NCBI GenBank assembly: GCA_016288855.1
Contig: JAEELJ010000020.1
Coordinates: 1-44,717, forward strand
Length of the DNA stretch: 44,717 bases
Reading direction: 5' to 3'
Origin: Acholeplasmatales bacterium
Lineage (GTDB): Bacteria; Bacillota_I; Bacilli_A; Acholeplasmatales; Anaeroplasmataceae
Shown here: piece by piece, positions 4,221 to 20,525 of the stretch
Numbering within the stretch: position 1 is the stretch's first letter
How the letters are laid out: every line of letters starts with the position of its first letter
Made by a program: the position numbers and the translations under genes
The notes under the pieces: model-generated
Told to the model about the DNA's origin: nothing
The model's input: only the letters and a program-made list of their open reading frames with translations
Database searches by the model: none

Positions 4221-5660
4221 TTAATTGTTTTTTGATTCTGAAATCTTTTGTTCGAATTTATTCTTTTCTATGTTAGTAGGTACTTCAACTGGGTATTTAC
4301 CTGTGAAGCAACCATCACAGAAATCACATTTAGAGTTTGTTGCAAGCTTATGTGCTGCATCAAGTGATAAATATGCAAGTGAGTCAACACCGATTATTTT
4401 TGCGATGTCTGAAACATTATCATATTTACATGCAATTAAGTTTTCTTTTGAATCTACATCTGTACCAAAATAACATTGAGAGATAAATGGTGGCGCTGAA
4501 ATTCTCATGTGAACCTCTTTTGCGCCAGCTTCTCTAATTAATTTAACGATACGCTTTGAAGTAGTACCACGTACTATTGAGTCATCAATTAAAATAACTC
4601 TTTTTCCTTCAACTGTTTCTTTTATAACATTTAATTTAATTCTAACTGCGTTTTCTCTTTGTGCTTGACTTGGTTTAATGAATGAACGTCCAATGTATTT
4701 GTTTTTTAGGAATCCAATTCCATATGGGATTCCTGATGCTTGTGAATAACCTAATGCTGCATCAAGTCCTGAATCAGGAACACCAATTACAACATCAGCA
4801 TCAACACCAGATTCTTCATATAAGTATTTACCAGCTGTAATTCTTGCATGATGAACAGAAGAACCTTCAATAACTGAGTCAGGTCTAGCAAAATATATGA
4901 ATTCAAATACGCATAATTTATGTGGTGCTTCATTACAATGATCTTTTATAGATGTAATACCATCTTTAGTTATTACAACAATTTCACCTGGTAATATATC
5001 CCTTATGAATTTACCACCAATTGAATCAATAGCACATGATTCTGATGCAACTACATATCCATTGTCAGCAGTATATCCAATACATAATGGACGGAATCCA
5101 TTAGGATCACGGAATGCGATAAGCTTTGTTGCGGACATTGCGATACATGAATATGCACCTTTAATATCTGACATAGCATGATTAATTGCTTCCTCAATAG
5201 AAGAAGAATTAATTCGTTCTCTTACAATTGCGTAAGCAATAGATTCAGTATCTGATGTTGCATGGAATATTGCGCCATTCATTTCGAATGATTTTCTTAA
5301 TTCATCAGCATTAGTTAAATTACCATTATGTGCTAATGCTAAATTTCCTTTAACATGTCTTACTGTAAGAGGCTGAATGTTATTAGGGTTATCTCCTCCT
5401 GTAGTAGAATATCTTACATGACCAATTGCCATATTTCCTTTTCCAAGAGAATCAAGGCTTTCTTTAGTAAATACATTCTCTACAAGTCCTTTGCCCTTGT
5501 AGTGTCTAAAGATACCATCATCACATACTGCAATACCTGCAGATTCCTGTCCTCTATGTTGTAAGGCAAAAAGTCCAAGATAGGTTGTTTGTGCTACATT
5601 TGTTGTCTTATTTTCAAAAACTCCAAAAACGCCACATTCTTCATGAATAGAATTAAACAT
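4221..5660 (-). CDS. purF: Amidophosphoribosyltransferase
   Basis: PurF uses glutamine and PRPP to make 5-phosphoribosylamine, the first committed step of purine synthesis. The 479-residue protein starts MFNSIHEE, a short propeptide, followed by the catalytic CGVFGVF with Cys9 as the Ntn nucleophile. The PRPP loop VILIDDSIVRGTTS and the C-terminal cysteines (CDFCDGCF, with others upstream) for the [4Fe-4S] cluster are present, so this is the Bacillus-type iron-sulfur enzyme. The gene is the last of the minus-strand nitrogen operon, 15 nt after asnB, and not in a purine cluster. AGGAG precedes the ATG. This placement suggests that expression follows nitrogen or glutamine status. Confidence 0.96.
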   Translation of the reverse strand: MFNSIHEECGVFGVFENKTTNVAQTTYLGLFALQHRGQESAGIAVCDDGIFRHYKGKGLVENVFTKESLDSLGKGNMAIGHVRYSTTGGDNPNNIQPLTVRHVKGNLALAHNGNLTNADELRKSFEMNGAIFHATSDTESIAYAIVRERINSSSIEEAINHAMSDIKGAYSCIAMSATKLIAFRDPNGFRPLCIGYTADNGYVVASESCAIDSIGGKFIRDILPGEIVVITKDGITSIKDHCNEAPHKLCVFEFIYFARPDSVIEGSSVHHARITAGKYLYEESGVDADVVIGVPDSGLDAALGYSQASGIPYGIGFLKNKYIGRSFIKPSQAQRENAVRIKLNVIKETVEGKRVILIDDSIVRGTTSKRIVKLIREAGAKEVHMRISAPPFISQCYFGTDVDSKENLIACKYDNVSDIAKIIGVDSLAYLSLDAAHKLATNSKCDFCDGCFTGKYPVEVPTNIEKNKFEQKISESKNN

Positions 5661-5675
5661 AAATAATCTCCTTTA

Positions 5676-7259
5676 TTACTTACCAGAAGCTCCGTAATTT
5701 GAAAGTACTCTAGCGGAAGGGTCATTAACATTGCATCCTTCCCAACTCTTATTAGGCATCCAGAAATCTTTAACCATCTTGGCTTGTCCATGGTAGTACT
5801 TTTCGAAAATTTCTCTATATAATAGAGATTCCTTAGTGAAGGGCTTTGAATAAGAATACAGAGAAGATTTTATCATAAATTCTTCATCTGTGTAAAGATT
5901 ATTAGCGTATTCTTTTAAATAATCTACCATAGAGTGACCAACTGCATCACTAAATGCGGCTTTATCACGCATTAAAATCTCATATGGTATTAAATTATCC
6001 TTTTCAAAAGCATGTCTTAATAGGTATTTACCCATATTATATTTATTCATCTTCATCTCTGGATTAATAGACATAACGTAGTTAACGAAATCTAAATCTC
6101 CAAATGGAACTCTAGCTTCAAGTGAATTTACAGCAATACATCTATCAGCACGAAGTACGTCATACATATGTATTTCATCAATTCTCTTTTTAGCTTCAGC
6201 CTGGAATTCTTTTGCGTTAGGTGCAAAATCTGTATATTTGTAACCGAATAATTCATCTGATATTTCACCTGTTAAAATTACTCTTAAATCAGTATTTTCA
6301 TGAATATACTTACATACTAAATACATACCAATAGAAGCACGTATTGTTGTAATATCGTATGTTCCTAAAGAATATATTACATGCTCTAGTGCATCAAAAA
6401 TATCCTTTTTAGTAAATATAACTTCAGTATGATCAGAACCAATATATTCAGCAACCTTTTTAGCATATTTTAAATCAATTGCATCAGTATCCATTCCTAT
6501 TGCAAAAGTCTTTAATGGTTTATTTAAAAGCTTAGTTGAAATACCACATACTAAAGAAGAATCAAGACCTCCTGATAATAAGAAGCCAATAGGAGAATCT
6601 GAATCAAGTCTTTTTTCTACAGCTTTAATAAGCTTATCGTGGATGTTTTTGCATACATCCTCTAAAGGATCATTAATTACTTCATCAACTTTTGTAGGAT
6701 CATAGTAACGATAAAACTTTCCATCAGTATAGTAATGTCCTGGAGGGAATGGAAGTATATTATCACATATATCTATTAAGTTTTTAGGCTCTGATGCAAA
6801 TACTATTTCATTATTTTTATTGTAACCATAATATAGAGGTCTAATACCAATAGGGTCACGTGCAGCTATGAATGAATTTGTTGTGCCATCATATATTATC
6901 ATTGCGAATTCGGCATCAAGCATTTTAAACATATCTGTACCATATTCATTATATAGTGGAAGTATTATTTCGCAGTCGGATTCACTTTTAAATGTATATC
7001 CTTTACTTATTAATTCTTCCTTTAGTGGTCTAAAACCATATAATTCACCATTACAAACTACTTTTCTATTACTCATTTCAAAAGGCTGCATACCTTCTTC
7101 ATTTAAACCCATTATGGCTAGTCTATGAAAGCCTAAAAAACCACCATGTGGTAGGTTAATAATTCTAGTCATATCTGGTCCTCTAGAAATAGTATTTTTA
7201 AAGTCTTTTAGGTAGATGTCTAAACTAGCATCTCCTATATATCCCATTATTGAACACAT
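5676..7259 (-). CDS. asnB: Asparagine synthase (glutamine-hydrolysing)
   Basis: AsnB transfers glutamine-derived ammonia to beta-aspartyl-AMP to form asparagine. The protein has 527 residues. The start at 7259 puts the nucleophile Cys at position 2 (MCSIMGYIG), as class II glutaminase domains require; the longer frame from 7301 would bury it and begins inside a hairpin. AAAAAGGAG lies upstream of this ATG. The N-terminal glutaminase half contains the SRGPD and CNGELYGF motifs, and the C-terminal synthetase half has the PP-loop SGGLDSSLV and a GEISDELFGY motif. It lies between amt and purF in the minus-strand operon. Identification is firm; asparagine as product is inferred from the family. 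Confidence 0.93.
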   Translation of the reverse strand: MCSIMGYIGDASLDIYLKDFKNTISRGPDMTRIINLPHGGFLGFHRLAIMGLNEEGMQPFEMSNRKVVCNGELYGFRPLKEELISKGYTFKSESDCEIILPLYNEYGTDMFKMLDAEFAMIIYDGTTNSFIAARDPIGIRPLYYGYNKNNEIVFASEPKNLIDICDNILPFPPGHYYTDGKFYRYYDPTKVDEVINDPLEDVCKNIHDKLIKAVEKRLDSDSPIGFLLSGGLDSSLVCGISTKLLNKPLKTFAIGMDTDAIDLKYAKKVAEYIGSDHTEVIFTKKDIFDALEHVIYSLGTYDITTIRASIGMYLVCKYIHENTDLRVILTGEISDELFGYKYTDFAPNAKEFQAEAKKRIDEIHMYDVLRADRCIAVNSLEARVPFGDLDFVNYVMSINPEMKMNKYNMGKYLLRHAFEKDNLIPYEILMRDKAAFSDAVGHSMVDYLKEYANNLYTDEEFMIKSSLYSYSKPFTKESLLYREIFEKYYHGQAKMVKDFWMPNKSWEGCNVNDPSARVLSNYGASGK

Positions 7260-7281
7260 ATTTTTCTCCTTTTTATAAATG

Positions 7282-7315
7282 CATAATGTGTCTAGCATCA
7301 CCTAGACACACTATG
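7282..7315 (-). other. Strong hairpin between amt and asnB
   Basis: A 14-bp stem (one G-T pair) closes a 6-nt loop, read GTGATG on the mRNA strand, between the amt stop and the asnB ribosome site. No U-run follows, so it is not a standard terminator. It could set differential stability or processing of the amt and asnB parts of the mRNA. The loop lacks the A1/G4 pattern of ANTAR targets. Confidence 0.7.
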
Positions 7316-7329
7316 ATTATTATTTGTTT

Positions 7330-9138
7330 TTATATTTCTTGAGCGTCCTGTAAAGCGGCATAGCCTTCTTCACCAGTTCTAACCTTTATAGCATTTACTA
7401 CGTTATATACGAAAATCTTACCATCACCAATGTGACCTGTATATAATGTTTTCTTAGCTGTTTCAATAACCTGTCTTACAGGTACCTTAGCAACTACTAC
7501 ATCTACTTGAACCTTAGGAAGAAGTGTTGCTTCAACCTTAACACCTCTATAGAATTCAGGTTGACCCTTTTCAGCACCACAACCCATAACGTGTGTAACT
7601 GTCATACCAGTAATACCAATAGCCATTAAAGATTCTTTTAATGCTTCAAGCATTCTTTCTTTACATATAATTGAAACTTTTGAGAATCCTGTCTTAGCTT
7701 CAACTGAATCATCTACATCTGTAACAACAGAAACAGGAACTGCCTCAGGCTCTGGTGTATCACCAGTTACTGTAATAGCCTTCTTATATTCAGGATCCTG
7801 AGAATAATCAATAGGATCAACTGCAGGAACGAAATCTGCATAAGGAGAAAGTAGACCATGTTCAGAAATATCTAAGCCCTTGATTTCGTCTTCAACAGAG
7901 CAACGAATACCAATAGTCTTCTTTAAGATGAAGAATGTTATGAAGATTAATGTTGCAGTCCATGCAAGAATTGCAATAATACCAATGAATTGAATTCCAA
8001 GTACTGCCATACCATGAGCGAAGTCTGTACCATGAACTAATGCATAGATAGGACCATCAACTCCTAAATATGAATGAGATGTTGCAAATAAACCTGCAGC
8101 AATTGTACCAAATACACCATTTACGAAGTGTACTGAGATAGCACCAGCTGGGTCATCGATATGTAACTTCTGATCAACGAATATAACAGAACCATAAACT
8201 AAAGCACCAGAAATAGCACCAATAATTGCAGCACCTAAGCCATCAACTGCATGACATCCAGCTGTAATAGCAACCAAGCCAGCAAGTGAAGCATTTAAGC
8301 ACATAGAAACATCTGGTTTACCGTTCTTGATCCAAGTAATTAAAAGACATACACATGTTGCAACTGCTGGAGCAATTGTTGTTGTAGCGAAAATCTGAGC
8401 AACTTCTTCAATAGTAGAAGCAGGAGCTGAGTTAAATCCATACCAACCGAACCATAAAATGAATACACCTAAAGCGCCAAGTGGAATTGAGTGTGCTTGG
8501 AAAGCATTAATTTTAGTAACCTTTCCTGCATCGTCTCTAATATATTTTCCTGTTCTTGCGCCAATCATCCAAGCACCAATTAAAGCACAAATACCACCAA
8601 CTGAGTGAATAGCAGCAGAACCTGATAAATCAATGAAACCTAACCAGTTTGCCTGTTCGATTCCCCATTCAACTGCAAGGTCAGATAACCAACCTCCACC
8701 CCAAACCCAGTGAGCTTCAATAGGGTAAATAACTAATGAAATAATAGCTGAATAAATGCAATATGCACTAAACTTTGTACGTTCAGCAACTGCACCAGAA
8801 ACAATTGTTGCAGCTGTTGCACAGAATAATAAGTTAAAAATAAATGATAACCAGTCAAAATTTGCAAAATCTGACCATAATCCTAATGTAGGAATACCGA
8901 TGAATCCGCCTAAGGCGTCTTCACCTAATAGTAATCCTCCACCAAGAATTGTAAATGTTACAGTACCAATACAGAAGTCCATTAGGTTCTTCATCATGAT
9001 ATTACCAGCATTCTTTGCACGAGTGAAACCTGTTTCAACCATTGCAAATCCGGCTTGCATGAAGAAGATTAATGCACATCCGATTAAAGCCCAAAGGCCA
9101 GTACCGCCAAATATGCCATCAATGTTGTTAATGTTCAT
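7330..9138 (-). CDS. amt: Ammonium transporter fused to a PII signalling domain
   Basis: Residues 1 to about 415 form an Amt/Mep/Rh channel with about eleven hydrophobic segments. The twin pore histidines lie in SAAIHSVGG and AISVHFVNG, and the signature DDPAGA is present. A linker of about 60 residues rich in Pro and acidic residues follows. Residues from about 490 to 602 form a complete PII domain (SKVSIICKERMLEAL, YRGVKVEA, GHIGDGKIF, VRTGEEG). The T-loop position equivalent to Tyr51, the uridylylation site, is valine. The fused PII probably senses ATP/ADP and 2-oxoglutarate and gates its own channel. The gene lies 34 nt after glnN, with GAGGG before its ATG, and is co-transcribed with glnN. 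Typical stand-alone Amt proteins are 400-450 residues. Confidence 0.95.
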   Translation of the reverse strand: MNINNIDGIFGGTGLWALIGCALIFFMQAGFAMVETGFTRAKNAGNIMMKNLMDFCIGTVTFTILGGGLLLGEDALGGFIGIPTLGLWSDFANFDWLSFIFNLLFCATAATIVSGAVAERTKFSAYCIYSAIISLVIYPIEAHWVWGGGWLSDLAVEWGIEQANWLGFIDLSGSAAIHSVGGICALIGAWMIGARTGKYIRDDAGKVTKINAFQAHSIPLGALGVFILWFGWYGFNSAPASTIEEVAQIFATTTIAPAVATCVCLLITWIKNGKPDVSMCLNASLAGLVAITAGCHAVDGLGAAIIGAISGALVYGSVIFVDQKLHIDDPAGAISVHFVNGVFGTIAAGLFATSHSYLGVDGPIYALVHGTDFAHGMAVLGIQFIGIIAILAWTATLIFITFFILKKTIGIRCSVEDEIKGLDISEHGLLSPYADFVPAVDPIDYSQDPEYKKAITVTGDTPEPEAVPVSVVTDVDDSVEAKTGFSKVSIICKERMLEALKESLMAIGITGMTVTHVMGCGAEKGQPEFYRGVKVEATLLPKVQVDVVVAKVPVRQVIETAKKTLYTGHIGDGKIFVYNVVNAIKVRTGEEGYAALQDAQEI

Positions 9139-9172: not shown

Positions 9173-11257
9173 TTATCTTACACCAAATAGTAAATCACCA
9201 TATGTTGGATAAGGCCAGTTTTCCTTAGAAACATGTCCTTCAAGTGAATCGATAACTGTTCTTAAATCTTCAATCTTAGGTAAGATATCATTTCTATAAT
9301 ATAATGATGTCTTTGCAACATCCTCTTCAGGTACATTTCCTAAAGCATCCTTTAGTGAATTAACTACTGCTAAAGCATTCTTTAATCCTAAAGATAATGT
9401 ATTTAATTCATATTCTTCATATGTTGTGTCAACACCAAGTGACTTCTTAGCTTCAATTGTTTTAGCTAAAGAAGAAGAATATTTTGAAATTGCTGGTAAA
9501 TAGCCCTTTGTTGCCATATCAATTGCAGTTAATGCTTCAATATTAACAACCTTTGCATAATGTTCCTGACCAATTTCATAACGAGCATGGATTTCAGTTT
9601 CACTATAAATACCATTTGATGTGAATAATTTAATATTCTTTGGAGCAATATAGTAAGGTAATGCTTCTGGAGTAGACTTTAGATTTAATAAGCCTCTCTT
9701 TTCAGCTTCAACTACCCAAGATTGATCATATCCATTACCATTGAAAATAATTCTCTTATGTTCAATAATAGTCTTCTTAATTAATTCATGTAAATCCTTA
9801 TCAAAGCTCTTTGAAGTTTCTAAGATATCAGCAAACTGCTTTAATTCTTCAGCAACTGCAGTATTTAACATAATGTTGCAGCAAGAAATTGAATCAGAAG
9901 ATCCTAATGCACGGAATTCAAATTTGTTTCCTGTGAATGCGAATGGAGATGTTCTATTTCTATCTGTAGAATCCTTTGGTAGAGGAGGTAATACATCAGC
10001 ACCAATCTTTAAGAATGTCTTACCATCACAGTTTAGAGGCTTACCTGTTTCAATATGATCTAATACAGCCTGTAATTCAGAACCTAAGAACATAGAAATA
10101 ATTGCAGGAGGTGCCTCGTTTGCACCTAAACGGAAGTCGTTTGAAGCTGAAGCACAGCTAATTCTTAATAAATCCTGATATTCATCAACAGCCTTAATAA
10201 CTGCAACTAAGAATAATAAGAATTGTGCATTATCAGCAGGAGTAGCACCTGGTTCTAATAGATTTAGGCCGGTATTTGTAGACATAGACCAGTTATTGTG
10301 CTTTCCGCTTCCATTAACTCCCTTGAATGGCTTTTCATGTAATAAGCATACTAAACCATGCTTACTTGCAATCTTTTGCATTAATTCCATTGTGATTTGG
10401 TTATGATCTGCAGCTACATTTGTAGTTGAGAAAATAGGAGCTAGCTCATGCTGTGCAGGAGCAACTTCATTATGTTCAGTTTTTGCAAGAATTCCAAGCT
10501 TCCATAATTCTTCATTTAATTCATTCATGAATTCTTGAACTCTTGTTTTAATAGTTCCGAAATAATGATCATCTAATTCCTGACCCTTAGGAGACATTGC
10601 GCCAAATAATGTTCTACCTGTATAAATAAGGTCTGGTCTTTGATCATAATATTTCTTATCAATAATGAAATATTCCTGTTCAGGACCAACTGTAGTCTTT
10701 ACAGTTTTAACTTCATTATGTCCGAATAGTTTTAATACTCTAATTGCTTGCTTTGATAAAGCCTGCATTGACCGTAGAAGTGGAGTTTTCTTATCTAGTG
10801 CTTCACCACCATAGCTACAGAATGCAGTTGGAATGCATAAGCATTTATCCTTGATGAAAGCATAAGAAGTTGGATCCCATGCTGTATATCCTCTAGCTTC
10901 TGCAGTTGCTCTTAATCCACCTGATGGGAATGAAGATGCATCTGGTTCACCTTTTACTAATTCCTTTCCCTTGAATTCCATAATAACTCTACCATCAGCA
11001 TCTGGTGAAATAAAACTATCATGCTTTTCAGCAGTAGTGCCTGTCATTGGTTGGAACCAATGTGTATAGTGTGTAGCACCATTTTCAACTGCCCAATCCT
11101 TCATTGCTTGAGCAACTGAATTTGCAACTGATAAATCAAGTTCTTCATCATTATCAATTGTCTTTCTTAATGATTTATAAATATCACTAGAAAGTCTTGA
11201 CTTCATTACTTTGTCGTCAAATACTAAACAACCAAAATAATCCTGTACCTGTTTCAT
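9173..11257 (-). CDS. glnN: Glutamine synthetase type III
   Basis: This enzyme makes glutamine from glutamate, ammonium and ATP. The 694-residue length and sequence are those of GSIII, the large dodecameric form found in Bacteroidota, Clostridia and others. The start [15 protein letters not shown] is typical. The N-terminal GSIII domain contains THWFQPMTG, and the catalytic beta-barrel includes [10 protein letters not shown] and the ATP/glutamate segment [16 protein letters not shown], followed by FRALGSSDS. It is the first gene of the minus-strand operon, directly behind a strong promoter and a leader terminator that overlaps a hairpin of ANTAR-target type. AAGGAGG precedes its ATG. Regulation by antitermination is likely. 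The symbol glnN is the one usual for GSIII. Confidence 0.96.
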
Positions 11258-11280: not shown

Positions 11281-11335
11281 AAAAAAGAGGCAAGGGAACG
11301 CATGGATAAATAGTATATCCAGGCTCCTTTGCCTC
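11281..11335 (-). terminator. Leader terminator (attenuator) of glnN
   Basis: On the mRNA strand GAGGCAAAGGAGCCTGGATA pairs with TATCCATGCGTTCCCTTGCCTC, with small bulges, and is followed directly by six U residues. It lies between the glnN promoter and its ribosome site, so transcription must read through it to express the operon. Confidence 0.88.
11321..11334 (-). promoter_or_regulatory. Candidate ANTAR-binding antiterminator hairpin of glnN
   Basis: On the mRNA strand AGGC-AAAGGA-GCCT forms a 4-bp stem with a hexanucleotide loop that has A at position 1 and G at position 4, the published signature of ANTAR target hairpins. It lies entirely within the 5' arm of the leader terminator, so the two structures exclude each other. 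Assignment is by pattern and by the ANTAR gene at 16255. Confidence 0.62.
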
Positions 11336-11356
11336 GCAATTTTTATTTACACGCTT

Positions 11357-11385
11357 ATTCTAATTCAAAAAAATTGTCTTGTCAA
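11357..11385 (-). promoter_or_regulatory. Promoter of the glnN-amt-asnB-purF operon
   Basis: TTGACA and TAGAAT on the minus strand are separated by exactly 17 bp. Transcription should begin near 11350, giving a leader of about 90 nt that holds the attenuator. Confidence 0.85.
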
Positions 11386-11478
11386 TCACTATTTTCAAAT
11401 TTTATTTTAAAAATCGGCCAAATTTTAATAAATCTTTTATATAAAATAGGATGAATTGAATTTTATTTCAAAAAAATG

Positions 11479-11507
11479 TTGACTATTAAATATAAAAGTG
11501 ATAAATT
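11479..11507 (+). promoter_or_regulatory. Promoter of the glutamate synthase operon
   Basis: TTGACT and TAAATT are separated by 17 bp. Transcription would start near 11512-11514, immediately at the antiterminator hairpin. A less likely alternative -10 box (TATAAA at 11491-11496) would start about 10 nt earlier. Confidence 0.65.
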
Positions 11508-11513
11508 ATAGAG

Positions 11514-11527
11514 GAACAAAGGCGTTC
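11514..11527 (+). promoter_or_regulatory. Candidate ANTAR-binding antiterminator hairpin of the glutamate synthase operon
   Basis: GAAC-AAAGGC-GTTC forms a 4-bp stem with a hexaloop that again has A1 and G4. It shares the string CAAAGG-N-G with the glnN leader hairpin and has the same C-G closing pair. Its 3' half is the start of the terminator 5' arm (11521 onwards), so the two structures exclude each other. Confidence 0.6.
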
Positions 11528-11582
11528 ACCTATTATTAGGGGTTTTTAGCTATCCCCCAATATTAGGTGAGCGTCTTTTTTT
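11521..11582 (+). terminator. Leader terminator (attenuator) of the glutamate synthase operon
   Basis: GGCGTTCACCTA pairs with TAGGTGAGCGTC, the stem continues imperfectly into GGGG/CCCC, and seven T residues follow. It lies about 50 nt before the first gene of the operon. An ATG within it is in frame with the first gene but is not a credible start. Confidence 0.88.
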
Positions 11583-11632: not shown

Positions 11633-12727
11633 ATGAAAAGAGAAGGGGAAGTTAGAATTCCAGCAGGATGTGCAATTGCTGCAATGGTATCAAGAGATGG
11701 AAAACTAGTATCAGGTAAAGCTATTGTTGATGCTATGAGAACTATGCACGATAGATCTAACGGTCTAGGTGGTGGATTTGCTGGATATGGTATTTATCCA
11801 GAATATAAGGATTATTATGCATTACATGTATTTTATGACAGTAATACAGCAAAGGTTTCAACAGAAACATATTTAGATGAGGCTTTTGATATTGTAGATT
11901 ATTCAAAAATACCTACAAAGAAAATACCTCAAATTACTGATGAGCCATTAATTTGGAGATATTTCGTTAAACCAAATGCGAACAGATTAAGAGAAGCTCA
12001 GTTAACAGAAGATGAATATACAATGAGAGCTGTTACTAAGGTTAATGATACTATTTCAGGTGCATTCGTATTCTCAAGTGGAAAGAACATGGGCGTATTT
12101 AAGGCAGTTGGTTATCCAGAAGAGGTTGGGGAATTCTATAGATTAGAGGATTATAAAGGATACATGTGGACAGCACATGGTAGATATCCAACTAATACTC
12201 CAGGCTGGTGGGGAGGAGCTCACCCATTTGGCTTATTAGATTATACTATTGTTCATAATGGTGAAATTTCAAGCTATGATGCAAATAGAAGATTTATTGA
12301 AATGTTTGGTTATAAATGCTCATTACAAACAGATACAGAAGTAATAACATATATTGCAGATTTTTTACTTAGACGTGAAAAATTAACATTAACTGAATTT
12401 GCAACAGTTGTTGCCGCACCATTCTGGGAACAAATTGATGCAATGGAAGATTTAAAGAAAAAAGAAGAAATTACATTCTTAAGAAATAATTATGCATCTT
12501 TATTAATCACAGGACCATTCTCTATTATATTAGGATTTAATGGTGGTCTTATGGCTTTAAATGATAGATTAAAGCTAAGAAGCTTAGTTGTTGGTGAAAA
12601 AGGTAATATGACATATATTGCAAGTGAAGAGTGTGCATTAAGAAGTATGTCTAAGGATTTAGATAATGTATGGGCACCTAAGGGTGGAGAGCCTGTTATT
12701 GTAAGAGTAAAGGAGGGTAAGTTCTAA
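11633..12727 (+). CDS. Glutamate synthase, glutaminase (GATase II) subunit
   Basis: This 364-residue class II amidotransferase corresponds to the first domain of the glutamate synthase large subunit (the GlxB/archaeal-type split form). It releases ammonia from glutamine for 2-oxoglutarate amination. The likely nucleophile is Cys13 in IPAGCAIAAM, after a short propeptide; other visible family features are DRSNGLGGGFAGYGIYPEY, TAHGRYPTNTPGWW and the HNGEISS motif. The start at 11633 follows AAGGAGGAAGG. The longer frame from 11567 begins inside the attenuator. The stop overlaps the next start by one base, so translation is coupled. It heads the operon that also encodes the ANTAR regulator. Confidence 0.9.
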   Translation: MKREGEVRIPAGCAIAAMVSRDGKLVSGKAIVDAMRTMHDRSNGLGGGFAGYGIYPEYKDYYALHVFYDSNTAKVSTETYLDEAFDIVDYSKIPTKKIPQITDEPLIWRYFVKPNANRLREAQLTEDEYTMRAVTKVNDTISGAFVFSSGKNMGVFKAVGYPEEVGEFYRLEDYKGYMWTAHGRYPTNTPGWWGGAHPFGLLDYTIVHNGEISSYDANRRFIEMFGYKCSLQTDTEVITYIADFLLRREKLTLTEFATVVAAPFWEQIDAMEDLKKKEEITFLRNNYASLLITGPFSIILGFNGGLMALNDRLKLRSLVVGEKGNMTYIASEECALRSMSKDLDNVWAPKGGEPVIVRVKEGKF

Positions 12728-14238
12728 TGAGAGATTATAGTGGATATTATTATCCAAAGTTTGAAATAGTTAGAAATAATGATATTTGCTCAAGATGTCG
12801 TTTATGTGAACGTGAATGTGCAAATGAAGTTCATTACTATAATGAAAAGGGACATATTATGCTAGCACATAATGAAAAATGTGTTTCATGTATGAGATGT
12901 GTTGCTGTATGCCCTATGAAATGCTTAAAGATAGTTGAATCTGATTGTAATATTAGAAGAAATGCTAACTGGACATCTTCTTTAGTAGAAGAAATTTATA
13001 AGCAATCAGATACTGGTGGAGTTTTATTATCATCAATGGGAAATCCTAATCAAATGCCTTCATATTTTGATAGAATTTTGATTAATGCTTCTCAGGTAAC
13101 AAACCCTTCTATTGATCCATTAAGAGAACCAATGGAAACAAGAGTATTCTTAGGCAAGAAGCCAACTCATGTTAAAAGAAATAAAGATGGTTCAATAGAT
13201 ACAACTATGAAACCACAGCTAAAAATCGATACCCCAATTATGTTTGGTGGTATGTCTTATGGTGCAATTTCATTAAATGCACATAAGGCTTTAGCTGGCG
13301 CAGCTAAGGAATTAGGTACATTCTATAACACTGGTGAAGGTGGATTACATGAAAGCCTAAAGGGTTTTAAGGATAATACAATTGTTCAGGTTGCATCAGG
13401 TAGATTTGGTGTATATAAAGATTATTTAGAAAGTGGCGCTGCAATTGAAATAAAGATGGGACAAGGTGCAAAGCCTGGTATTGGTGGACACTTACCTGGA
13501 AAGAAAATGGTTGGAGATGTTTCAAAGACAAGAATGGTTCCTGAGGGAAGTGATGCTATATCACCTGCACCACATCATGATATTTATTCAATTGAGGATT
13601 TAAAACAATTAGTTGATTCACTTAAGGAAGCAACTGATTATAAAAAGCCTATTATAGTTAAGGTTGCAGCAGTACATAATATTTCAGCAATCGCATCGGG
13701 TATTGCAAGAAGTGGTGCTGATATTATTGTAATTGATGGTTATAGAGGTGGTACTGGTGCTGCACCTACAAGAATAAGAGATAATGTTGGTATTCCTATT
13801 GAATTAGCTTTAGCATCAGTAGATAGTAGATTAAGAGAAGAAGGAATTAGAAATAACATTAGCTTAGTTGTTGCTGGTTCAATTCGTTCATCTGCAGATG
13901 TAATTAAAGCAATTGCGTTAGGTGCTGATGCAGTATATATCGGTACTGCCGCATTACTTTCAATGGGATGTCATTTATGTAGAAATTGCCAAAGTGGTAA
14001 GTGTAACTGGGGTATTGCAACACAAGACCCTAACTTAACAAAGAGATTAGATCCTTTAGTTGCTGAAGAAAGATTAGTCAATTTAATTAATGCTTGGACT
14101 CGCGAAATAAAAGAAATGATGGGTGGCATGGGTATTAATTCACTTGAAACATTAAAGGGTAATAGATTAATGCTTAGAGGATTAGGCTTAAATAAGGTTG
14201 AGCTTGATATTTTAGGAATTAATCATGCTGGAATGTAG
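12727..14238 (+). CDS. Glutamate synthase, FMN-binding subunit with two [4Fe-4S] ferredoxin motifs
   Basis: This 503-residue protein is the synthase domain of a split glutamate synthase. It reductively aminates 2-oxoglutarate to glutamate on FMN. Residues from about 18 to 65 carry two CxxCxxCxxxC motifs (CSRCRLCEREC and CVSCMRCVAVC), a bacterial ferredoxin-like module. The FMN barrel follows, with MFGGMSYGAIS, TGEGGLHE, KMGQGAKPGIGGHLPG, DGYRGGTGAAP and the cluster-binding GCHLCRNCQSGKC. No NADPH-oxidising small subunit (GltD) is encoded nearby, so the electrons may come from ferredoxin or an unlinked partner. It overlaps the GATase gene by 1 nt. Confidence 0.92.
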   Translation: MRDYSGYYYPKFEIVRNNDICSRCRLCERECANEVHYYNEKGHIMLAHNEKCVSCMRCVAVCPMKCLKIVESDCNIRRNANWTSSLVEEIYKQSDTGGVLLSSMGNPNQMPSYFDRILINASQVTNPSIDPLREPMETRVFLGKKPTHVKRNKDGSIDTTMKPQLKIDTPIMFGGMSYGAISLNAHKALAGAAKELGTFYNTGEGGLHESLKGFKDNTIVQVASGRFGVYKDYLESGAAIEIKMGQGAKPGIGGHLPGKKMVGDVSKTRMVPEGSDAISPAPHHDIYSIEDLKQLVDSLKEATDYKKPIIVKVAAVHNISAIASGIARSGADIIVIDGYRGGTGAAPTRIRDNVGIPIELALASVDSRLREEGIRNNISLVVAGSIRSSADVIKAIALGADAVYIGTAALLSMGCHLCRNCQSGKCNWGIATQDPNLTKRLDPLVAEERLVNLINAWTREIKEMMGGMGINSLETLKGNRLMLRGLGLNKVELDILGINHAGM

Positions 14239-14248
14239 GAGGTATTTT

Positions 14249-14971
14249 ATGCTAATTGATGCAAAGAATTATGAATCTTATCAAGCGCTAAATCATGCAA
14301 TAAAAACATCTTCTGATAAAGATATTGAATTAGTAAATTTATTAGGTGATAGATATATTGGTGATGCACTTGTTGATAAAAATATTAAAATAACTTCTGG
14401 TATTCCAGGTAATGCATTAGCTGCTTATATGGATGGAGCAAGAATAGAAGTATTTGGTAATACTTCTGATGCAACAGGTGATACTATGAATAATGGTGAA
14501 GTAATTATTCATGGTAATGCTGGTGATACTTGTGGATATGCTATGCGTGGTGGAGAAATATATGTAAAAGGTAATACAGGATATCGTAGTGGTATCCATA
14601 TGAAGGCATATATGGATAAAAAACCTGTTATGATAATTGGTAACAAGGCTGGTTCATTTTTAGCTGAGTATATGGCAGGTGGATATATAGTTGTATTAGG
14701 ATTAGATAATCCAAAAGAAATAGTTGGTGACTTTAGCTTTAAAGGAATGTATGGTGGCAAGGTTTTTATTAGAGGTGATTTTAAATCTGAATCTAATAGA
14801 ATTTGTGTGAATAAGGCTACAGAAGAAGATATTTTAGAAATTGAGGAATATCTAAAGAAGTTTTCTTCATATTTCAATTATGATTACAATGATTTAATTA
14901 AAGATGGATTCAGTGTTGTAACTCCAAACAGCAATAATCCTTTTAAAGCACATTATGTTGTAAATTTATAA
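14249..14971 (+). CDS. Glutamate synthase, GXGXG (alpha) domain subunit
   Basis: This 240-residue protein is the structural GXGXG beta-helix that forms the C-terminal domain of full-length glutamate synthase. Repeated glycine-containing turns are visible (SGIPGNALAAYMDGARIEVF, GNTSDATGDTMNNGEVIIHG, GNAGDTCGYAMRGGEIYV, GNTGYRSG). The start at 14249 has AGGAGG upstream; the longer frame from 14225 would overlap the preceding gene and lacks a better ribosome site. GATase, FMN and GXGXG genes occur in the same order as the domains of a fused enzyme. A similar domain occurs in formylmethanofuran dehydrogenase, but the context settles the role. Confidence 0.88.
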   Translation: MLIDAKNYESYQALNHAIKTSSDKDIELVNLLGDRYIGDALVDKNIKITSGIPGNALAAYMDGARIEVFGNTSDATGDTMNNGEVIIHGNAGDTCGYAMRGGEIYVKGNTGYRSGIHMKAYMDKKPVMIIGNKAGSFLAEYMAGGYIVVLGLDNPKEIVGDFSFKGMYGGKVFIRGDFKSESNRICVNKATEEDILEIEEYLKKFSSYFNYDYNDLIKDGFSVVTPNSNNPFKAHYVVNL

Positions 14972-15033: not shown

Positions 15034-16221
15034 ATGTACGATAAGGAATCAGTAATTGAATATTGCAGGGAAGAGGATGTTAAATTCATTAGACTTGCAT
15101 TCACAGATGTTTATGGTGAGCAAAAGAATATATCAATAATGCCCCATGAACTAGAAAGAGCTTTTAACTATGGTATTTCAATTGATGCGCTTGCCATAGA
15201 TGGATTTGCTATGGGAAAAAGATCAGATTTATTCTTATTCCCTAATCCAGCAACTTTAACATTACTTCCATGGAGACCTTTATCAGGTAAGGTTGTAAGA
15301 ATGTATTGTGATGTTAAAAATCCAGATGGTACACCTTTTGTTAATGATACAAGACAGATACTTAAAAAGGCTTGTGATCTTGCAGCAAAGGAAGGAATTG
15401 AATTTAAGTTTGGTTCTGAAATTGAATTCTATTTGTTTAAAACAACAGAAGATGGCGAGCCTACAAAAATTCCATATGATAATGCAGGTTATATGGATAT
15501 TGCACCAAAGGATAAGGGTGAAAATGTTAGAAGAGAAATTTGCTTAACATTAGAAGAAATGAATTTGGTTCCAGAAGGATCACATCATGAAGAAGGACCT
15601 GGTCAGAATGAAATTGACTATATGTATTCTGATCCTTTATGTGCTGCAGATGATGCAACAACATTTAAGGGTGTTGTTAGAACTGTTGCTGAAAGAAATG
15701 GTCTTTATGCTTCATTTGAACCAAAACCATTAGAAGGAAGACCTGGTAATGGCTTCCATATCAATTTTAGCTTATCAAAGAATAAGAAGTCTTTAAATGA
15801 GGCTGGAACTGCTGGTGTTTTAAAGCATATTAAAGAGATTACTGCATTCTTAAATTGTAAGGATGACTCATATAATAGATTAGGTAAGATGCATGCTCCA
15901 AAGTATATTTCATATGGAGAAGAGAATCGTACTGTTTTAATTCGTATTCCTGCTGCAAAGGATATTTATAAGAGAAGCGAATTAAGAAGTGCTGATTCTA
16001 CATGTAATCCTTATATAGCATTTGCATTAATTATTTATGCTGCATTAGATGGAGTTAAAAATAATTTAACTCTTCCAAAGGAATTAGATGCAAATGATGA
16101 AAAGAATAATCAATTTGAAGTATTACCTTTAAGCTTAGATGAAGCAAAAACAATTGCTAGAACATCAGATTTTATAAAAGAATACCTTCCAAAAGAAATA
16201 TTTGAGTATTATTTAAAGTAG
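15034..16221 (+). CDS. glnA: Glutamine synthetase type I, short form
   Basis: This is a second, unrelated-length glutamine synthetase. At 395 residues it is shorter than the usual 440-470, yet the active-site motifs are all present. These are KFGSEIEFYLF (metal-binding Glu pair), HHEEGPGQNEIDY, GNGFHINFSL with the metal-binding His, ENRTVLIRIP, and ELRSADSTCNPY. The Asp of the D50 region is retained (SIDALAIDGF, in place of the classical FDGSSIEGF). The adenylylation Tyr region is absent. The gene follows the GXGXG subunit by 62 nt, with AGGAGG before the ATG, and precedes the ANTAR regulator by 33 nt. A gamma-glutamyl ligase role is possible, but the glutamate synthase neighbours favour ammonium assimilation. 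Confidence 0.88.
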   Translation: MYDKESVIEYCREEDVKFIRLAFTDVYGEQKNISIMPHELERAFNYGISIDALAIDGFAMGKRSDLFLFPNPATLTLLPWRPLSGKVVRMYCDVKNPDGTPFVNDTRQILKKACDLAAKEGIEFKFGSEIEFYLFKTTEDGEPTKIPYDNAGYMDIAPKDKGENVRREICLTLEEMNLVPEGSHHEEGPGQNEIDYMYSDPLCAADDATTFKGVVRTVAERNGLYASFEPKPLEGRPGNGFHINFSLSKNKKSLNEAGTAGVLKHIKEITAFLNCKDDSYNRLGKMHAPKYISYGEENRTVLIRIPAAKDIYKRSELRSADSTCNPYIAFALIIYAALDGVKNNLTLPKELDANDEKNNQFEVLPLSLDEAKTIARTSDFIKEYLPKEIFEYYLK

Positions 16222-16254: not shown

Positions 16255-16857
16255 ATGAAGGAATTTACATATAGTGTACTTTTAGTATCACAATTTAATA
16301 AATTTAATGAAACAATAAAGGGTCTTCTTGATAATACATTTGATCCTTTAATTATTGTTTCTAATGCTAATGAGGCTAGAAGATTATTGCTAGAACGAAA
16401 GATTGATATTGTTGTTGTTAATACACCTTTAAAGGATGAGCTTGGTGTACTTTTTGCTATTGATGCATCAACAAGACACAGCACAGGTGTATTAGTTTTA
16501 GCAAATGAAAATATTTATTCTGATGTTTATCATAAAACAAATGAATTCGGTATTTTAACTATTTCTAAACCGACTTCAAAGGAGATGTTTTTACAATCAT
16601 TAAGATTAATAACATCAACCCTAGAAAAGATAAATATTAGTAAAAATAATGAAACTAAAATGTCCATGGAAGATAGAATGAAGGAGATAAGAATTATAAA
16701 TGAAGCCAAACTCCTTTTAATGAAGCATAAGCATTATACAGAAGATGAAGTGCATAAATGGCTTGCAAAAACTAGCATGGACTTAAGAATAAAAAAAATA
16801 GATTTGGCAAAAAATGTAATAGAGATATATCACAAAAAGGACGATGAGGTAAAATGA
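16255..16857 (+). CDS. ANTAR-domain antitermination regulator (NitR/NasT-like)
   Basis: This 200-residue protein has an N-terminal receiver-like domain (about residues 5-125) and a C-terminal ANTAR RNA-binding three-helix domain (about 137-190, [16 protein letters not shown]...[10 protein letters not shown]...). ANTAR proteins bind paired hexaloop hairpins in leader RNA and prevent terminator formation. The phospho-acceptor position holds Asn56 (DIVVVNTPL) instead of Asp, and the acidic pocket is not evident, so control by phosphorylation is unlikely. It sits between glnA and pyrG, overlapping pyrG by 4 nt (ATGA), with AAAGGAGG before its start. Likely targets are the leaders at 11281-11335 and 11514-11582, so it may autoregulate its own operon. 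Confidence 0.88.
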
Positions 16858-20493: not shown

Positions 20494-20525
20494 ATTATCC
20501 TTACAAAAAAGTAAGGATTTTTTTT
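20494..20525 (+). terminator. Intrinsic terminator after dapL
   Basis: ATCCTTAC pairs with GTAAGGAT around an AAAAAA loop, followed by a run of seven T. It ends the glutamate synthase to dapL operon. Confidence 0.92.

Follow-up and report, generated by a model that had tools for sequence, protein, structure and literature searches.

Single-hexaloop leaders as probable ANTAR-dependent attenuators of divergent glutamine synthetase and glutamate synthase operons in relatives of Anaeroplasma

Two divergent nitrogen operons in the stretch of DNA analyzed here (44,717 nt, hereafter the window) each begin with a leader in which one short hairpin overlaps an intrinsic terminator, and comparison of sequences makes it quite probable that both operons are controlled by ANTAR attenuation at a single hexaloop, with one hexaloop replacing two. 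Published ANTAR targets, as presented in PMC8934654 and PMC3369931, are dual hexaloops consisting of P1 and P2. What sets the present leaders apart is the single hairpin; ANTAR control of nitrogen genes is already known and widely predicted (PMC3369931).

The window is contig G000:C24 of a 1.77-Mb genome that belongs to the same genus as Anaeroplasma bactoclasticum ATCC 27112 (G018); the genomes compared are mostly metagenome assemblies. A 375-bp intergenic region separates the operon of type III glutamine synthetase (GSIII) from that of glutamate synthase (glt), and the features are as follows.

4221-5660 (-), purF, in the minus-strand operon
5676-7301 (-), asnB (asparagine synthase), in the minus-strand operon
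7330-9138 (-), amt-PII fusion (ammonium transporter plus PII), after GSIII
9173..11257 (-), type III glutamine synthetase (GSIII/GlnN), first gene of the minus-strand operon
11281..11335 (-), intrinsic terminator of the GSIII leader: stem 11335-11287, U-tract 11286-11281, about -26 kcal/mol
11321..11334 (-), hexaloop hairpin of the GSIII leader, AGGC-AAAGGA-GCCT, proposed ANTAR site and antiterminator
11357..11385 (-), predicted promoter of the GSIII operon: -35 TTGACA 11385-11380, 17 nt, -10 TAGAAT 11362-11357
11479..11507 (+), predicted promoter of the glt operon: -35 TTGACT 11479-11484, 17 nt, -10 TAAATT 11502-11507
11514..11527 (+), hexaloop hairpin of the glt leader, GAAC-AAAGGC-GTTC, proposed ANTAR site and antiterminator
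11518..11582 (+), intrinsic terminator of the glt leader: core about 11521-11575, model extending to 11518, U-tract from 11576, about -33 kcal/mol
11633-12727, 12727-14238 and 14225-14971 (+), glutamate synthase as three split-domain genes
15034..16221 (+), short glutamine-synthetase-like protein, 395 aa, candidate partner or sensor
16255..16857 (+), ANTAR protein of class A, a receiver-like domain without acceptor Asp plus an ANTAR domain

The glutamate synthase ATG at 11633 is preceded by AAGGAGGAAGG, and downstream of the ANTAR gene the plus-strand operon continues with pyrG, dapF and an aminotransferase gene. The division of glutamate synthase among three domain genes is shared with a few relatives; in other relatives it is a single gene of about 1500 aa, divergent from GSIII and with the same leader type.

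Both window hairpins have a 4-bp stem, a closing C-G pair and an A1/G4 hexaloop; the GSIII hairpin lies within the 5' arm of its terminator, the glt hairpin overlaps its terminator, and the distance from the -10 box to the hairpin is 22 nt in the GSIII leader and 6 nt in the glt leader. The sequence-only reading of this DNA had placed a strong terminator before the first gene of each operon, overlapped by a 4-bp hexaloop hairpin (AAAGGA or AAAGGC, closed by C-G), and both elements held up, with the terminators located at 11335-11281 (-) and about 11521-11582 (+). A dedicated scan found an A1/G4 hexaloop hairpin with an overlapping terminator exactly twice in 44.7 kb, in these two leaders, and not once in 20 first-order Markov shuffles of the window. 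The loop had also been described as the signature of ANTAR targets, of which half is present: the A1/G4 hexaloop is there, the second hexaloop of the described dual targets is not. A generic terminator scan reported neither leader terminator, probably because their loops or internal loops exceed its limits, and an Rfam scan of the window returned tRNA only, with no leader match.

Folding of the growing transcript, with its start assumed from the predicted promoter, indicated that the hexaloop forms first, from about +30 in the GSIII leader and +16 in the glt leader, and is displaced at about +56 to +60, when the terminator stem is complete. Taken alone, the hairpins amount to -4.4 kcal/mol (GSIII) and -1.6 kcal/mol (glt), compared with about -26 to -33 kcal/mol for the terminator-containing folds, so that something must hold the hairpin for it to win. 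In the mechanism we propose, polymerase would start at the promoter and the hexaloop hairpin would be the first RNA structure to emerge; an active ANTAR protein would capture this single hairpin (closing C-G, loop AAnGnn) and hold it, and as the held hairpin shares bases with the terminator 5' arm, the terminator would be blocked and the GSIII and glt operons transcribed. With no active ANTAR protein, the completed terminator would displace the weak hairpin and transcription would end. Because the ANTAR gene lies inside the plus-strand operon, the control loop would be self-reinforcing. In this scheme, ANTAR binding, read-through, the direction of control and the transcription start are what we infer.

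To see how general the arrangement is, we considered the 25 GSIII genes whose leaders could be read in the window genome and its nearest 60 genomes. Exactly one A1/G4 hexaloop in the terminator was present in 22 of them; two leaders, those of paralogues in G005 and G007 (about 50% identity), have the canonical two hexaloops, and one, in a genome where no ANTAR gene was found (G012), has neither a hexaloop nor a dual pair. The 13 glt leaders follow the same design as GSIII with a different stem, GAAC/GTTC, and the divergent GSIII/glt pair of single hexaloops is kept in 13 genomes including the window genome. TTGACA/TATAAT-like promoter boxes are conserved in all 22 orthologous GSIII leaders.

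These data bear on the reading that the leaders are canonical dual targets after all, with P1 further upstream or in the form of a non-standard hairpin and no new architecture, which we consider unlikely. It would agree with the single system tested, E. faecalis, where P1 is essential, its deletion having abolished EutV-dependent induction and antitermination (PMC3369931), and with the presence of P1 in the glnA leaders and the two GSIII paralogues of the same group. However, in 32 of 35 leaders (22 GSIII and 13 glt) the hairpin starts 6-12 nt past a -10 box that is well conserved, the exceptions being 22 nt in the window GSIII leader and its closest relative and 24 nt in one glt leader, and in all 35 the stretch from the -35 box to the hairpin was free of a second A1/G4 hexaloop. 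A scan of the 400 nt upstream of GSIII genes was essentially empty of P1 as well. P1 is thus missing from single-hexaloop leaders, and there is no room for it, as the hairpin begins so close after the -10 box.

Single-hexaloop terminators are also found upstream of GSIII in Clostridia and Treponema, and allowing a G-U pair in the scan yielded more leaders in these groups, beyond the relatives of Anaeroplasma. Several leaders, including that of Treponema ruminis, contain tandem attenuators, each with its own hexaloop and terminator. Tandem GSIII leaders of Treponema and Clostridia include L243, L232, L226 and L265.

Selection on the hairpin was assessed with 49 hairpins (47 distinct) from Anaeroplasma relatives, Clostridia and Treponema. 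Loop positions A1, A2 and G4 and the closing C-G pair are invariant in all 49, and the next two stem pairs are always paired while switching between GC and AU on both sides (30/17 and 28/19). Covariation scored 0.540; shuffles gave 0.241 (sd 0.025), and slid registers did not exceed 0.172. Since the hairpins from outside the family were picked by scan, their pairing is partly by construction; the 22 GSIII leaders are orthologues with readable leaders. A further reading is that the conserved bases serve the terminator alone, with the hexaloop a by-product of its pairing and ANTAR uninvolved. The loop does lie within the terminator 5' arm, and terminator pairing accordingly constrains some of its bases, but the hairpin strand that the terminator leaves unused (3' GCC in GSIII, 5' GAAC in glt) also shows conservation and covariation from leader to leader, A2 persists even in leaders whose terminator has it mismatched or bulged (e.g. 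G024, G026), and the element is missing from all ANTAR-less genomes of the comparison below, which makes this reading very improbable. The covarying stems with fixed A1, A2 and G4, taken together with the co-occurrence with ANTAR, support selection acting on the hexaloop itself.

Co-occurrence was examined outside the home family, within the same class, from the GSIII leaders of 57 genomes whose ANTAR status was clear; leaders were also read in 2 genomes where the ANTAR call was weak. The element was present in 8 of 12 ANTAR-bearing genomes and in 0 of 45 ANTAR-less genomes (Fisher p=3e-7, ancestry ignored), with contrasts of presence and absence inside families f12, f17, f22 and f23; in the other 4 ANTAR-bearing genomes, the GSIII gene that was read had no recognized element. 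A leader that keeps the terminator but has lost the hexaloop, the case that the sequence-only reading had named as refuting, did not occur among the ANTAR-less leaders inspected by eye, where the two are missing together. This pattern, combined with the fact that in both window leaders the hairpin overlaps the terminator and not the ribosome-binding site, argues against ANTAR binding the single hexaloop with a different outcome, such as repression or an effect on RNA stability or translation; mycobacterial ANTAR proteins are reported to act in translational repression (PMC8164766), and we give such an outcome here only a slight chance. The least probable reading, in which the divergent nascent RNAs supply P1 and P2 in trans to one ANTAR dimer, could draw on the conserved divergent pair and on a mention of two-nascent-RNA contact as possible and deemed unlikely (PMC8934654), but single-hexaloop GSIII leaders occur in distant taxa and opposite the ANTAR gene instead of glt (G006, G009, G013, G017, G019, G023), and obligatory pairing of this kind is ruled out by single leaders that exist without that partner.

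Dual targets exist in the same group of bacteria and serve as an internal control. The ordinary glnA (GSI) of about 14 relatives has a classic dual hexaloop pair, with P1 AGC-AAnGnn-GCT and P2, often TGC-AAAGTC-GCA, in the terminator; in G007, it is the GSIII paralogue immediately preceding glnA that has the dual leader. A dual leader was found in 14 of 14 genomes with a class B ANTAR protein and in 1 of 10 without (Fisher p=8e-6, ancestry ignored), as if the dual hexaloop and class B ANTAR had been lost or gained together. G003 (L089), G024 (L087) and other relatives without class B ANTAR have a glnA leader that lacks the dual hexaloop. Class A ANTAR genes lie in the glt operon or adjoin GSIII; the window genome encodes only this class, and its glnA has no hexaloop. 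Tyr164 of EutV stacks on G4 (PMC8934654); at the corresponding position, class A proteins have His (20/20) and class B proteins Tyr (11 of the 12 on the tree). Strict specialization, with class A reading single and class B dual leaders, is ruled out by G015, G018 (A. bactoclasticum) and G034, which are 96-99% complete and show class B only, yet keep both leader types; one ANTAR protein would thus probably read both. The idea that a longer distance from the hairpin to the U-tract compensates for the missing P1 was also dropped, as inspection by eye revealed no clear difference from the dual leaders. On balance, we lean towards the view that an obligatory second hexaloop is not universal: the GSIII/glt attenuators of Anaeroplasma relatives, Clostridia and Treponema would use one, and in Anaeroplasma relatives class A (His against G4) would be the usual reader, class B (Tyr) going with dual targets.

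The gene at 16255, which the sequence-only reading had taken for an ANTAR gene, indeed encodes a protein that matches PF03861 (E=4.5e-13, 49.2 bits vs a curated cut-off of 27.3) and, by sequence, the Rv1626 and EutV structures. It is the one ANTAR gene found in the genome, which fits the suggestion that a single protein serves both arms, and no convincing intrinsic terminator with a U-tract was seen between the glt leader and this gene, making the suggested autoregulation plausible. The first plus-strand terminator with a clear U-tract past the leader is at 20497, behind the aminotransferase gene, so the ANTAR gene is probably part of the operon it would control. In relatives, the ANTAR gene is likewise found within the glt operon or divergent from GSIII, and a side observation suggests translational self-control by ANTAR. 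Unlike receivers of the EutV type, which are activated by phosphorylation and have an acceptor Asp and an acidic pocket, the receiver-like domain reads VVVNTP where the acceptor should be, and its first strand is followed by no acidic pair. Given the missing acceptor Asp, the protein is more likely to be controlled by a partner than by phosphorylation, and the adjacent glutamine-synthetase-like protein is perhaps that partner. The glutamine-synthetase-like protein is a constant neighbor of ANTAR (395-401 aa in 10 genomes); in 10 of 10, both the G(Y/F)EAP flap motif and the C-terminal segment found in ordinary glutamine synthetase are missing, with the other catalytic motifs mostly retained; it may be a degenerate enzyme serving as a sensor.

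A search of the window genome with a covariance model of promoter plus hairpin, in which 150 of 7,112 candidates were scored, gave convincing matches at the window leaders only. The glt leader, which was included in building the model, was the best match, and the GSIII leader scored E=0.2, a weak value attributable to its 22-nt spacing. A match on C11 with E=0.04, better than that of the GSIII leader, has no overlapping terminator and was discounted.

EutV binds isolated single hexaloops, and the 2022 structure paper defines the minimal binding site as one hexaloop, both hexaloops still being obligatory for antitermination; the need for two hairpins, though the dimer binds one at a time, is posed there as an open question, and the paper does not settle to what extent single hexaloops function (PMC8934654). 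The many natural leaders apparently without P1, found beside dual leaders in the same genomes, offer matched pairs for tests of this question. Two-hairpin search models would miss the motif, and a literature search of open-licence papers retrieved no report of single-hexaloop attenuators. The leaders also suggest that, in gut bacteria, nitrogen assimilation comes under ANTAR control more widely than has been recorded.

The closest known system is EutV/eut of E. faecalis, which shares with the window the ANTAR domain and the short A1/G4 hairpin closed by C-G, and in which P2 similarly overlaps the terminator 5' arm in a leader preceding nitrogen-related genes. The window leaders differ in having one hexaloop, at the very 5' end of the predicted transcript, and the window protein differs from EutV in having His at the Tyr164 position and no acceptor Asp, with no kinase gene noticed beside it. 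In the predicted ANTAR regulons with glutamate and glutamine synthase genes, e.g. in Desulfotomaculum, several nitrogen-assimilation operons likewise share one ANTAR-type motif; those regulons were found with a two-hairpin search model (PMC3369931), which leaders of the window type would fail, and the text read there describes no GSIII leaders from Anaeroplasma, Clostridia or Treponema. AmiR, as described in PMC8934654, resembles the window protein in its receiver-like domain without an acceptor residue. Unlike AmiR and NasT/NasS (PMC3795266), however, no AmiC- or NasS-type neighbor was seen beside the window protein, whose constant neighbor is glutamine-synthetase-like.
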